Positions 2,990 through 44,882 of a stretch of 64,000 nucleotides of DNA are shown piece after piece. How positions within the stretch are numbered: the first letter of the stretch is position 1; every line of letters begins with the position of its first letter. The stretch is from NCBI RefSeq assembly GCF_900156875.1, contig NZ_LT707409.1, forward strand, positions 2,160,244-2,224,243. Direction: 5' to 3'. Origin of the DNA: Robertmurraya dakarensis. GTDB lineage: Bacteria; Bacillota; Bacilli; Bacillales; Cytobacillaceae. Both the position numbers and the translations under genes were made by a program. The notes below the pieces were generated by a model that had not been told where the DNA came from, searched no databases, and worked only from the letters and a program-made list of their open reading frames with translations.

Positions 2990-4417
2990 TTAACTTCCAT
3001 GTAGTGCCTTCCCATCTACAGCCAACGCCGCTTCGCCAATGGCCTCTGATAAAGTTGGGTGCGGGTGTATTGATTGTGTGATTTCCCATGGTGTTGCATC
3101 TAATACCCGAGCTAACCCTGCCTCAGAAATAAGATCCGTGACATGAGGGCCAATCATATGAACTCCTAAAATATCATCATTTTCCTCATTTGCAATTACT
3201 TTCACAAACCCGTCCGCATCGCCAGCTACTAACGCCTTGCCAATTGCACGGAAAGCAAATTTTCCTGCCTTCACACGATAACCCATATTCTTTGCTTCTT
3301 CCTCCGTATAGCCGATACTAGCTATCTCGGGCCTGCTATAGATACATCTTGGTACTAAACTATAATCGATTGGAACTGGGTTTTCACCAGCGATATGTTC
3401 CACTGCACGGATGCCTTCATGTGAAGCGGCATGTGCTAATTGAGGGCCGCCAATACAATCACCAATTGCGTAAATATGAGATTCCTTTGTTTGATAGTAT
3501 TCATTTGTGACGATGACACCTTTTTCAACCACGATATCCGTATTTTCCAGGCCAATTCCCTCAACATTGGCATTCCGGCCAACCGAAACAAGAATTTTTT
3601 CAGCTTGAAATTCCTTAAGCTCCCCCTTTACATCTGCAGAAACCTTGACACCTTCCGCAGCTTTATCCAGTGTTTCCGGCAGTACTTTCGCATTCGTTAC
3701 CACTTTTATTTTTCTCTTTTTGAACAGTCTCAGTAATTCCTTCGAAACTTCATGGTCTTCTGTAGGTACCAGCCGATCTGCAAATTCTAAGACTGTTACG
3801 TCCGTTCCAAAGTCCGCCAGCATCGATGCCCATTCCACTCCTATAACGCCTCCGCCAATGATGACGATTGATTTAGGAACTTCATTCATCTGTAATGCTT
3901 CATCTGATGTCAAGACCGTTTCACCATCGATATTTAAGTTTGCTAAGGTGCGAGGGCGCGATCCGGTTGCAAGTATAACGTTCTTTGGGATGAGCATTTC
4001 ATTTTCATCCCCGTTATTCATCTCAACTGAAATCGTTCCTGGCATCGGAGAAAATATGGACGGTCCAAGTATTCGTCCGATTCCTTCATAAACATCGATT
4101 TTCCCCTGCTTCATTAAATGCTGTACCCCTTTATAAAGTTGATCGATGATTTTATTTTTTCTTTCTTGCACCTTTGGAAAATTTAAAGTCACATTGGAAG
4201 TTTCTATCCCAAACTCATTGCTGCGTTTCGTCAATGCAAAAACTTCCGCGCTTCTTAAAAGGGCCTTGCTCGGAATGCAGCCTTTATGCAAGCAGGTTCC
4301 CCCAAGCTTTGCTTTTTCAACTATGGCTGTTTTCAAGCCCAGTTGCGATGCGCGTATGGCAGCTACATAACCGCCTGTGCCGCCTCCAAGAATAACTAAA
4401 TCGTACTCCTTTGCCAT
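2990..4417 (-). CDS. lpdV: Dihydrolipoyl dehydrogenase (E3) of the branched-chain complex
   Basis: Flavoprotein that reoxidises the dihydrolipoyl arm of E2 with NAD+. The 475 residues show the FAD loop GGGTGG (11-16), the redox disulfide [13 protein letters not shown] (C42 and C47), an NAD loop [12 protein letters not shown] near 187-198 and the C-terminal [13 protein letters not shown] motif, where H453 should be the proton donor. The start has AAGGAGGGG eight to ten bases upstream. The first codons overlap the end of buk by 22 bp, suggesting translational coupling. Its place before bkdAA supports assignment as the operon-specific E3 rather than the pyruvate dehydrogenase E3. Confidence 0.95.
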
Positions 4418-5535
4418 GTTTGATCCCCTCCTTTTTCCATTACTTGCACGAAATCACTCGGATATGTCTTTTCTAATTCTTCTCCTCTCAAAACCCTTAT
4501 TGCACCTTCTGCTAGTGCTTGAAGCTCATTTTCACCAGGCTGTACGATTACATCTGCGATCCAATTGATCCTATCACTAATTTGCTCAACGAGTTCCTTT
4601 CCATGAGCTAGACCGCCCGTTAAGATGATGCCATCGACTCTTCCTGCAAGAACCGCACTGGCAGCACCAATTTCCTTCGCAACCTGATAAGCCATTGCAG
4701 AATAGACTAACCGAGCGTTTTCGTCTCCATTCGCAATCATATTTTCCACAGCAATCGCATCATTTGTTCCCAAATAACTAACAAGCCCTCCCCGTCCTAC
4801 AAGCTGCTTGATGATCTCTTCTCGAAAAAATTCACCAGAATAGCAGAGGGAAATTAAATCTCCTGCCGGGACTGTACCAGCCCTTTCAGGACTAAAGGGT
4901 CCTTCTCCATTCAATCCGTTATTAACGTCTACTACTTTTCCTTTTCGGTGAGCACCGACTGTAATGCCCCCGCCCATATGTGAAACAATTAAATTTAACT
5001 CTTCATATTTTTTTCCAAGTTGTTTTGCCACCCGCTTAGCTGCCGCCTTCTGGTTTAAAGCATGAAAAATACTTTTTCTTTGAATTAAAGAGGAACCTGA
5101 AATTCGCGCAATCGAGTCCATCTCATCTACTACAACCGGATCAACTATATATGCAGGGATGTTTAACCCATCTGCAATTTCATAGGCAATAATCCCCCCT
5201 AAATTCGATGCATGCTCTCCTCCATATCCCGATCGTAAGTCAGCCAGCATTTCAGGATTCACCCGATAGGTTCCTCCTTCAATCGGTCTTAATAGACCAC
5301 CACGCCCGCAAACAGCATCAAGCTTGGATAGATTAAATCCCTCATTATCAAGTGACTCTAAGATAATTTGTTTACGGTAATGGTATTGATCTATTATATG
5401 GGCAAATTCAGCAAGGGTTTCAAAATTATGCCGGATTGTTTTCTCTAATACAGGGAGATCATTATCATAAATCGCTATTTTGGTTGAAGTCGAGCCTGGA
5501 TTAATGACAAGAATTCGATAATTTGTTTCCTGCAA
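4396..5535 (-). CDS. buk: Butyrate kinase (branched-chain fatty acid kinase)
   Basis: Acetokinase-family enzyme that makes ATP from acyl-phosphates formed by Ptb, giving isobutyrate, isovalerate or 2-methylbutyrate. The phosphate-binding NPGSTSTK motif lies near residues 12-19. [14 protein letters not shown] and the ILTGGLAHG motif further on are typical of the family. I chose a TTG start at 5535 because it has GGGAGGG nine bases upstream and gives 379 residues, near the family's roughly 360. The in-frame ATG codons at 5553 and 5592 have no ribosome binding site. It overlaps lpdV. Confidence 0.9.
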
Positions 5536-35725: not shown

Positions 35726-38611
35726 TTATAGTCCACACTTTAACTGCGCATTGCAGTTCGTACATGTATTACATCCGCCGATTTCTTTTACTTTACCTTT
35801 ACGGCAAACGGGACAAGTATTTCCTACTTCAGACCCAATTGTCACGTCAGTTGAACGTACATCACTGATGGTATCAACCAGGACAACATGTTGTTTTGGT
35901 TTGTCTTGCTTTTCTTTCTCATCCATTGTATTTTCTTCAGCTTTAAGTGTTAATACTTGTGAATCGCGTGATCCGTCGACATAGACTGTACCACCTTTTG
36001 CACCGCCGCGATACAATCTTTCATACACTTTCTCTACCTGCTCAACACTGTATCCTTTAGGCGCATTAACGGTTTTACTAATGGAACTGTCAATCCAGCG
36101 CTGGATGACACATTGCACATCTGCATGTGCTTCAGGTGCAAGTTCCATCGCCGTTACAAACCAATGCGGCAGGTTATTAGCATCTGCTTCAGGATGTTGA
36201 TCCAAATATTCTTGAACAATATCCGCCTTCACTTCAATAAACTTACCTAAACGTCCGCTTCTGAAGTATGAGAAGGAGAAGTAAGGTTCAAGGCCTGTAG
36301 ATACCCCAACCATTGTTCCAGTGCTTCCCGTGGGAGCAACAGTGAGTAAGTGGGAGTTACGAATACCGTTTTCTAGTATCGCTTTTCTAATATCTTCAGG
36401 CATTTTTTTCATAAAGCCTGTTTCGGTAAATGCTTGGCGAAGTCGATTTGTTTCACCATCAGTTTCGCCAACCAAGAATGGGAAGCTTCCTTTTTCTTTT
36501 GCTAACTCAACTGAAGTACGATAAGCAGTAGTCGCGATCGTTTCAAATACTTTATCGACTAACTCATTACCCTTTTGGGAGCCGTACTCCGTTTCACAGT
36601 AAATGAGCAAGTCATGAAGACCCATGACACCTAAGCCAACACGTCTTTCGCCTAGTGCTTGTTTTTTATTTTCTTCAAGAAAGTACGGTGTTGCATTAAT
36701 TACGTTATCCTGCATACGCACACCGACTTCTACAGTACGCTTCAATTTTTCAAAGTTAACAGTCTTTGTTTCTTTGTCGGCCATTTCTGCTAAGTTAACC
36801 GCAGCAAGGTTACAGACAGAAAATGGAGCGAGAGGTTGCTCTCCACATGGATTTGTCGCAACAACCTTCTGACCGTACGCTTTTGCATTGGTCATGTCGT
36901 TTGCGTTGTCTATAAAGAAAATACCTGGCTCTGCTGAGTATGTTGCACAGATGTTAATTAAGTTCCATAATTCTTTTGCTTTCATTTTACGATAGACGCG
37001 AACTTTATAGCCCATCTTTTCCCATTCGCGAACATCTCCGACTTTATGCCACTCTTCATTGTAGTATTTCATTTCTGTAGCATTGTAGTGCTCTACATCT
37101 GGGAAGCGCAGTTCATAATCGGCATCGTTCTCTACTGCTTCCATAAATTCTTTTGTTAAACAAACAGAAATATTTGCTCCTGTTAAGAACTCAGAATTAT
37201 GAACAGAATAGTTACCGCCAGTTGTCAATTTTTCTTCTGCTTCTTCGATAATTTCCTGACTAAATCCACCTAGTCCAGGAATGCTTCTATAATTTAAGAT
37301 CCCTTGATACATCGCTTTTTCCTGCTCTGTAAGCGGGGTAAACTTTAATTTTTCTTTCGCATATCTTTTGATCGCTTCATCATTTGTTGTTTCTAGAAGA
37401 AAACGTAGTATTCTTGGATTTTGCATTTTAGAAATAATGAATTCAATAATATCAGGATGCCACGTATTTACCGTCCTTTTCAGGATATTACATTGCAATA
37501 ATGCAATCGGACTAGACTATATCATCACCCTCAGCAAGACTGTTAGGGGCCGGGCGCTAGTGAGAGTTTATTGTTGGGACTCACTCTCTAGTCGTTGAAC
37601 CTTCGCCATTACCTTTGCCCAATGACGCTTGGCTGCAGATTGTCCAATGCTAACAATTTTTAAAGCCTTCACGCTCACCGTTTCCAGTCACGTTGTGGCT
37701 TGCTAGCCTCTAAGGAGTTCCCCGCAATTCACCCGATTTTCTAGTCATTCATTTTCTGAACGACGCGGACTAGTGCATCATTGTTAATCCGCCAGCATAA
37801 TCATCTGGGCACCTCTGCGCGACCCGCCTTGCTCAACTAGATGCGTTAGCTTTGCAATGTCATCCAGCCATGATACTGAACCAGATGATTTACCGTTGAC
37901 ACCTCGAGCAAGTGTATTTCGCGGACGCAGTGTCGAACCGTTTGTACCAACTCCGCCGCCGCGGCTCATGATTTCCATTACTTGCTTTCGGTGTTCAGAA
38001 ATTCCTTCACGAGAGTCTTGCACAAAAGGCATAACATAACAATTAAAGTAGGTTACATCTGTATCTGCTCCCGCACCGTACAGAACCCTGCCGGCAGGAA
38101 TGAAATTCAATTGAACAAGTTCTTGATAAAACTTCTCAAACCATTCTTTTCTCTTCTCTTCTGTCGTTTCAACTGAGCTTAAGCCTGTTGCGTTGCGTTT
38201 CGCAATTTGCTCATAATATAGCTCTAGCGGCTTCTCAATCACATCTAGTGAACGATTAATAACTCCCGTTCTAACTTCTTCAGGATCATCGAGCACACCT
38301 CTGAACTCTTCATCAACAAGAACTTGAGCTGTCTTTTCCTCCCAATCAATTCCCATAATTATTCCTAATCCTCTTGCTGGAAATTTAGGGTCCTCCTTGA
38401 TGGTTAATACAACAAAATCCCCATTTGCTAGTGTAATCTTTTCCGTATCCTTGAAAGTATAACGATCAAGCATGACCAAACGGGAAACACCTTTATGCGT
38501 AATCTTCATATCAGCAGTGATTGGGTGAACTTGAGGAAATAATCGGATATCCTTGTTCAAACGCTCCACATCAATATTCATTTTTTGTCCTAACGCAACA
38601 GACATACACAC
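35726..38611 (-). CDS. nrdJ: Vitamin B12-dependent (class II) ribonucleotide reductase, interrupted by a group I intron
   Basis: Adenosylcobalamin-dependent reductase that makes deoxyribonucleotides with or without oxygen. Exon 1 is 38611-37787 and exon 2 is 37462-35726; joined they give 853 residues. The join reads QMIMLAD/WHPDIIEFI, restoring a conserved segment. Exon 1 carries FNCYVMPFVQDSREGI and MSRGGGVGTNGSTLRPRN; exon 2 carries the catalytic NPCGEQPLAPFS and a C-terminal Cys cluster (CPVCRKG, CNTCTNCNAQLKCG) for reduction or zinc. Without splicing, translation ends at TAA right after exon 1. It lies between lipM and yqhO, where mntR is found in B. subtilis. Two NrdR boxes lie upstream and no cobalamin riboswitch is seen. 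Confidence 0.93.
37463..37786 (-). ncRNA. Group I self-splicing intron in nrdJ
   Basis: 324-nt intron without an open frame. P1: exon end GCGGAU pairs with the guide GUCCGC (37770-37765), giving a G.U pair at the splice site. P10: CUA just before the guide pairs with the first exon-2 bases UGG. The intron ends in G at 37463. Core elements in order: P, AATTGCGGGGAAC (about 37729-37716); Q, AATCTGCAGC (37641-37632); R, GTTCAACGACTAGA (37600-37587); S, GATATAGTCT (37523-37514), R and S forming P7. Splicing restores the nrdJ frame exactly. The subgroup is uncertain. Confidence 0.95.
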
Positions 38612-44545: not shown

Positions 44546-44705
44546 TGGCACCTGAAAGTTTACCTTGATGGCTTTCCCCTTTGGTGGCTTCTATAAAAAA
44601 GAAGCTCTCTCCAGAGCTGCGTCAAACGAGGGTTCTTTTGCCTGAGAGATTCACAATCAACTTGCTTGCTCCTTCGGCGCTACATCCGTAGTCTCTCCCC
44701 TAGTT
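44546..44705 (-). promoter_or_regulatory. Tandem glycine riboswitch controlling gcvT-gcvPA-gcvPB
   Basis: Two consecutive aptamers on the minus strand. The first has GGAGAGACT, GCCGAAGGAGCAAGC and TCTCAGGCAAAAGAACC. The second has CTCTGGAGAGAGC, CACCAAAGGGGAAAGCC and AACTTTCAGGT. These are the hallmark sequences of gcvT riboswitches. An intrinsic terminator follows directly, so this is a glycine-on switch by antitermination. Confidence 0.95.
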
Positions 44706-44882
44706 ATCATTCGCTTTTATAAAATTTTCCAAGTTGGTCATAATAAAACAAAATGAAAAATGCATCGTTAAATTTATTAACTAATATTGTAGAAATTTCA
44801 CAAAATTTTTATTACTACTAACATCCTACCATTAAGAATCTAATTGAGCAATATAAATTCTGCATCAAAAGGAGTTGTTTTT

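Follow-up and report, generated by a model that had tools for sequence, protein, structure and literature searches.

Group I introns in ribonucleotide reductase genes are a known kind of element. RNRdb is reported to contain over 100 curated examples (PMC2795772), and the site reported here could be among them. A group I intron is reported in a ribonucleotide reductase gene of Nostoc punctiforme (Meng et al, 2007, as cited in PMC12702839 and PMC3984707), and others are described in nrdE and nrdF of the Bacillus cereus group and of phages, with two in the nrdE of Twort (PMC3984707; PMC3653736; PMC6145125). Site-specific, mostly endonuclease-free group I introns also occupy the tmRNA T-loop in bacterial chromosomes (PMC11915505). 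A 2014 review stated that there is little evidence for horizontal movement of bacterial introns among bacterial species (PMC3984707). In the open-licence literature on group I introns and reductase genes, we recognised no description of the nrdJ insertion site analysed below.

The window, a 64,000-nucleotide stretch of the Robertmurraya dakarensis genome, carries on its minus strand an nrdJ gene with a broken frame. The codons GCG GAT end at 37787, a TAA occupies 37786-37784 and the frame picks up at TGG (37462), which delimits a 324-nt intron at 37786-37463 (exon 1 ...GCG GAT / TAA... intron ...TACG / TGG CAT...). An earlier note on this DNA had described the stop, the resumption 324 nt on and the joining of GCG GAT to TGG CAT; these are exact, and in silico removal of 37786-37463 leaves 853 codons with a terminal stop and no internal ones. 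Its further point, that the full NrdJ frame depends on splicing, is supported in silico by this excision. The break falls after codon 275, as the note had it, when counted from the GTG at 38611, but the ATG two codons on (38605) is the likelier start because it lies behind an AAAGGAG, and NrdJ is thus probably 851 aa long. The joined protein scores 1718.6 bits against NF005991 (vitamin B12-dependent ribonucleotide reductase; cut-off 854) and is also matched by PF02867 and PF00317. Its frame retains NPCGE, which we take to be the active-site motif of NrdJ; with the NF005991 score above cut-off and this motif present, it belongs to NrdJ (PRK08115).

The covariance model RF00028, named in the earlier note as a check on its group I reading, matches the minus strand at 37796-37494 over its whole length (model 1-253; 65.4 bits, gathering score 50, E 2.4e-14), and the reading is further borne out by covariation in 33 copies. 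A group II intron was rejected, with no Rfam group II match at gathering score in the window, as was an IStron, because each of the three forward frames of the 324 nt contains stops and no transposase is encoded. The window's only other Rfam match at gathering score is a glycine riboswitch (44620-44710, minus strand, 68.1 bits) upstream of ORFs that by eye resemble glycine dehydrogenase subunits. The features of the nrdJ locus, all on the minus strand (-), are as follows.

37787..38605 (-): nrdJ exon 1, ATG at 38605, alternative GTG start at 38611
37787..37792 (-): exon 1 part of P1 (5' strand), GCGGAU, its final U pairing with G; invariant in 33/33 aligned copies and 36/36 family carriers
37463..37786 (-): group I intron of 324 nt, from the U of the in-frame UAA to a final G; RF00028, junction, covariation
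37784..37786 (-): UAA stop, in frame, directly after the 5' splice site; 53/55 site copies have a stop as this codon
37741..37779 (-): putative endonuclease-frame remnant, DALVRVVQKMND plus stop, overlapping the P1 3' strand and P2
37771..37773 (-): P10 5' strand CUA, pairing with exon 2 UGG (37462-37460); 92.9% of cells paired
37765..37770 (-): internal guide sequence, P1 3' strand GUCCGC; structure, covariation alignment
37744..37764 (-): P2 hairpin; two-sided changes in 4/7 pairs
37730..37736 (-): P3 5' strand; structure, covariation alignment
37721..37726 (-): P4 5' strand; structure, covariation alignment
37634..37639 (-): P4 3' strand; structure, covariation alignment
37599..37633 (-): P6/P6a; structure, covariation alignment
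37589..37593 (-): P7 5' strand; invariant 33/33
37562..37588 (-): P7.1 hairpin; two-sided changes in 4/6 pairs, 85.4% of cells paired
37550..37556 (-): P3 3' strand; structure, covariation alignment
37528..37548 (-): P8; two-sided changes in 3/7 pairs
37515..37519 (-): P7 3' strand; invariant 33/33
37471..37510 (-): P9.0, P9.1 and P9.2; P9.1 weak, 67.5% of cells paired
35726..37462 (-): nrdJ exon 2 including the stop codon, continuing the frame; dN/dS 0.027-0.036 against four congeners

The six P1 pairs with a G.U at the splice site, the three P10 pairs and the intron-terminal G that the earlier note had listed are all present, one of the P10 pairs being a G.U. For the covariation alignment we used 33 complete copies lacking an endonuclease, with their exon flanks, drawn from 36 such bare copies (L206 and two of 419-421 nt were excluded). 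The proposed P1-P10 structure is paired in 94.6% of 2975 cells, against 34.5-41.2% for slid control structures, a comparison in which it has the advantage of having been drawn on the window sequence. Two-sided changes occur in 37 of 91 pairs and amount to 205 cells (shuffled mean 58.4, equalled in 0 of 500 shuffles). P1, P6 and P7 do not vary across the 33 copies and are therefore uninformative for covariation, P3 has one two-sided pair (4 sequences), and the weakest helices are P9.1 and P5b (77.7% paired); over the core P3-P8 with its P3/P7 pseudoknot, compensatory change is found overall. Minimum free energy folding, a method unable to show the P3/P7 pseudoknot, gave a z of -2.26. The covariation is strong, and the structure is not a chance pairing. 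From the P7.1 hairpin, we take the intron to belong to subgroup IA. In subgroup IA2, P7.1 and P7.2 lie between the P7 5' and P3 3' strands; the window copy shows P7.1 in this interval, which is longer in L166, L171, L176 and others. A gap in the frame of a conserved enzyme could also be left by a bypass element or an intein, but the stop at codon 1, the lack of a long frame in the 324 nt and the group I covariance match with its covariation make such an element extremely improbable, and the intein is ruled out.

Comparative sequence evidence thus makes it very probable that nrdJ is interrupted by a group I intron of a site-specific homing family, the window copy being an endonuclease-deleted and now immobile form. 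In the splicing scheme we propose, exon 1 GCGGAU would pair with the guide GUCCGC, ending in U.G, and a guanosine would attack after the U of codon 275; its binding site presumably lies, by homology, in the P7 5' strand (37589..37593). The freed exon 1 would then attack after the terminal G, which P10 holds in place, and full NrdJ would be made from spliced mRNA only.

The same insertion recurs in other genomes. A blastn search with the intron matched 102 of 193 family genomes, mostly in the core only, and 36 of them over ~300 bases or more; these 36 carry an intron at exactly this nrdJ site, after codon 275. Carrier extraction asked for GCGGAT before the intron, and L120, the 36th carrier, was added beyond the criterion of an ACG 3' end; since the other 85 of the 121 loci are uninterrupted at the site, the extraction missed none of these loci on account of different codons. 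A sequence pattern that combines guide, P2 and P3/P4 and had been fitted to the family copies matched 47 of 84,980 species genomes, in all 47 at this nrdJ site (5 records end before exon 2 and are seen on the 5' side only); because the pattern is strict (a near form was tried on the 36), it may miss other copies. Nineteen of the 47 records lie outside the family set, in Bacillales such as Pseudalkalibacillus, Evansella, Fictibacillus, Sporosarcina, Aquibacillus, Priestia, Domibacillus and Heyndrickxia, and the site copies studied total 55 (36 family genomes plus these 19). An assembly artefact, conceivable in a draft of 11 contigs, has a negligible chance against a site interrupted in 55 records by introns that differ by a median of 17%.

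Most of these copies share the stop at the splice site. The first intron codon is a stop in 53 of 55 (TAA 49, TGA 3, TAG 1; exceptions L117 and L202), and the bases after it vary. At two other nrdJ insertion sites, the first codon is a stop in 20/20 inserts (site 265) or the first stop is codon 13 in 29/29 (site 654). Because all three stops are in use, this pattern suggests selection for ending translation at the intron start, where a halt would prevent ribosomes from entering the ribozyme core. Since splicing needs a guanosine nucleotide and ribosomes would exit at the splice-site stop, nrdJ output could in principle be coupled to GTP level and translation, with splicing a control point of dNTP supply and the bare form a domesticated regulator, which we consider very improbable.

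The intron also leaves an imprint on its exon. Exon 1 ends in GCG GAT in 36/36 family carriers and in 7/85 non-carriers (Fisher p 4e-24), namely 2 of 30 uninterrupted genes and 5 of the 55 interrupted elsewhere in nrdJ; the non-carrier set holds 30 of the 86 uninterrupted family nrdJ genes. An nrdJ tree of the 121 loci yields 26 independent pairs of one carrier and one non-carrier, and ~24 of them show the same codon direction and 0 the opposite (p ~1e-7). As long as it is present, the intron probably keeps GCGGAU as the end of exon 1. On this tree there are 28 changes in carriage, against a shuffled mean of 31.2 (minimum 24), so that its distribution is patchy almost to randomness. L072 (G184), an imprinted non-carrier inside the Robertmurraya carrier clade, is a candidate for precise loss.

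Across 1483 pairs, the distance between introns is correlated with that between exons (r 0.67), the medians being 0.171 for introns and 0.266 for exons. In some pairs, introns 2-4% apart sit in host nrdJ genes 22-25% apart, as in L138-L113 (intron 2.3%, nrdJ 22.7%) and L186-L129 (3.6% and 25.2%), and the nearest relative of the window intron, from Robertmurraya kyonggiensis, differs by 4.2% in the intron and 18.4% in nrdJ. A single clade of the 36 family introns is rejected (cost 137.7 log units, p-AU 1.6e-47), whereas a single clade is compatible with the nrdJ exons of their hosts (p 0.577). Because the history of the intron conflicts with that of nrdJ, we infer that the intron has moved between bacteria. 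In 45 close-intron/far-exon pairs, where the nearest bins are blurred by alignments entering the intron, no dip indicative of co-conversion was seen near the site; homing would be expected to leave one if tracts are long and recent. A phage origin of the exact intron was rejected, as 103 phage records share its core and none covers 80% of it; the strict intron pattern had 0 matches in viral contigs. Endonuclease relatives are likewise partial (35 phage records, none covering 80%, and 3 in viral contigs, 36-41% identical). Plasmids gave 3 partial matches, and NrdJ in viral contigs is represented by 3 loci, 26% identical.

Such movement would proceed by an HNH homing endonuclease encoded in the P1 loop. 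Among the 55 site copies, 18 have an endonuclease-like frame (15 open; disrupted in L115, L172 and L200), 1 is part-deleted and 36 are without. The 18 bearers measure 1101-1160 nt, and their frame of ~260 aa occupies the P1 loop, with the 5' splice site on one side and the guide on the other. The L074 protein, the sole one scanned against Pfam and resembled by the others by eye, matches HNH (PF01844) at a modest 23.6 bits (cut-off 21.4). A homing endonuclease frame, by which a mobile group I intron is recognised, is open in 15 of 55 copies; as the earlier note had observed, the 324 nt of the window intron hold none. Nor was a copy found elsewhere in the host genome, and in the genus (7 members) the endonuclease is confined to G181 and G182. 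The note's term bare ribozyme stands as to this absence, to which we add that the window copy is one end of a series and that C-terminal endonuclease codons survive in it: DALVRVVQKMND corresponds in frame to the last 12 codons, and the same tail closes the endonuclease frames of relatives. Because this remnant overlaps P1 and P2, most of it could persist by RNA structure alone.

Intermediate forms occur in other copies: the middle of the frame is deleted in L138 (696 nt), the last ~24 codons are kept in L085 (361 nt; HEKTFGKEENFIDALVRVVQKMNG), and the leader is fused to the tail in L098 and L186. On the intron tree, the endonuclease state changes 13 times (shuffled mean 15.3; 31/300 shuffles as low), close to random, and since the tree gives no direction, the loss reading rests on these remnants. 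The bare form could conversely be ancestral in at least some lineages, with endonucleases entering P1 loops later and the P1/P2 sequence becoming their C-terminus; the at least 13 switches, undirected as they are, and the overlap of the window remnant with P1/P2 would fit this order, but L138, L085, L098 and L186 show deletions of a formerly present endonuclease and none of the copies here is known to show gain, so we judge it unlikely. The window intron is best read as an endonuclease-deleted form, and since relatives carry the mobility gene that it has apparently lost, the spread and decay of such introns are well documented by this locus.

The nrdJ gene is in addition a hot spot of insertion. 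It is present in 184 of 193 family genomes and uninterrupted in 86; of the interrupted loci, 91 including the window's were analysed and 7 further ones left out. The 91 loci contain 144 inserts in agreement with the splice-site rule of group I introns (U before, G at the end), and these fall at seven sites, after codons 265 (20), 266 (1), 267 (15), 275 (36), 482 (38), 652 (5) and 654 (29). In thirteen genes sites 265 and 275 are both occupied, with a 30-nt exon between, and L114 has four inserts. At gathering score, Rfam run on 16 loci gave 21 RF00028 matches (sites 265, 267, 275, 652 and 654). It also gave three group II matches; these fall in L089 and L128, whose 2.6-kb inserts after codons 528 and 484, respectively, match RF02004 and RF00029 and lie beside group I introns. 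The single 266 insert reaches only 31.9 bits against RF00028. That insertion sites lie in unusually conserved nrdJ DNA was unsupported (p 0.37 when all seven are counted, 0.24 when they are grouped into four clusters). In L106 (7084-7170) and L123 (7107-7222), numbered in nrdJ orientation, codons 659-697 are partly repeated ~1 kb past the end of the gene, perhaps as a recombination scar.

The codon-482 site presumably splits the active-site motif as NPCG/E. RF00028 had no match in the six family-locus inserts run at this site, and for the 249-nt insert of L099 (within ~4240-4495, minus strand) a threshold relaxed to E 10 brought none either. Nevertheless, 33 of 38 inserts share P3-like strands whose end pairs co-vary (TA/TA 26, TA/CG 5, CG/CG 2) and crossing P7-like strands GCATA/TATGC, and P1 co-varies as well, CGTGTGGT occurring with GCCTCACG in 35/38 and CATGTGGT with GCCTCATG in 3/38. 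Because P1, P3 and P7-like strands are present and P1 and the P3 ends co-vary, we read these 33 as divergent group I introns missed by Rfam, which may lack a subgroup located in an active-site codon. The inserts of L087, L105, L109, L123 and L154 (176-201 nt, U before and G at the end) look like an unrelated second class and, if group I, would be very small ones; Rfam gave no match at E up to 0.1 to those of L087, L105, L123 and L154, a weak match in L154 falling within its codon-265 intron.

The intron appears to sit in the only ribonucleotide reductase of its host, since searches of the draft yielded neither another large subunit nor NrdD, although a missing gene is possible in 11 contigs. 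This genome (G000; 5.48 Mb) is given as 100% complete and 4.32% contaminated. Its PF02867 barrel domain matches are the two nrdJ pieces only, whereas 6/6 congeners have a full-length match (E 2e-143 to 1e-145), read as NrdE; a family-wide reductase table agrees. Class III NrdD (PF13597) was not found in any of the 7 genus members, a repeat search of G000 being also negative, and G000 contains no uninterrupted copy of the intron site. Its four PF00268 matches (E 1.6e-17 to 4.4e-24) are, we assume, R2-like oxidases; 3/6 congeners also have weaker PF00268 matches beside a main small subunit at 1.6e-65 to 1.1e-76. The four lie at G000:C10:1630669-1638678 and C11:1000728-1001339, three within ~8 kb, with the class I large subunit absent. 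Among the further family carriers that lack a strong class I match and were searched for NrdD, G015 was positive and none was found in G084, G162, G070, G163 or G003, of which G162 and G070 are <90% complete and G163 and G003 hold additional PF02867 pieces. In G184, an extra PF02867 match (C44:284876-286759) contains 1 TGA and 3 TAA, besides an interrupted nrdJ and a full-length match.

With no second reductase found in the draft, the remark in the earlier note that the intron lies in an essential pathway is strengthened. Both nrdJ exons show dN/dS of 0.02-0.04 against congeners, values that are only rough because dS exceeds 1 (saturated). If the intron were real but spliced poorly or never here, nrdJ would be a decaying pseudogene; the absence of the endonuclease from G000 would fit, but the low dN/dS in each exon, the intact P1, P7 and terminal G and the reductase search results for G000 make this very improbable. 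We favour a functional intron that would be retained because the host needs nrdJ and could not tolerate imprecise intron loss. Beside smpB on G000:C11, an RF00028-like match of 45.8 bits, under the cut-off (L002 1501-2104, minus strand), adjoins the 3' end of a tmRNA match (RF00023, 156.7 bits) where ARAGORN reports no tmRNA; on the other strand, L002 953-1441 is an ORF with what we take to be a LAGLIDADG-like motif. The element looks like a T-loop tmRNA intron of the known type (PMC11915505).

The nrdJ locus thus offers a putative chromosomal case of horizontal movement, with one intron family at one site in 55 bacteria. The site shows stages from an open endonuclease to apparent clean deletion, an imprint on host codons and a candidate imprinted empty site (G184, L072), so that the cycle of gain, decay and loss of mobile introns becomes testable in free-living bacteria, in a gene that the host seemingly cannot replace.

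Compared with known systems, the full-length match to RF00028 (Intron_gpI) places the window intron in a broad family that is uninformative on the site. The Nostoc intron comes from another phylum, and the title of its description names an insertion sequence element; as one account calls the cyanobacterial genes nrdE, we liken it to the window intron by its reductase gene only, not by class or site. The introns of the B. cereus group and Twort resemble the window intron in occupying reductase genes of Bacillales and their phages, but those are class Ib genes, whereas the window gene is nrdJ. The tmRNA T-loop introns differ in having an RNA gene as host and, in the few that have an endonuclease, one of the LAGLIDADG type; like the window copy, they are site-specific, chromosomal and mostly endonuclease-free.
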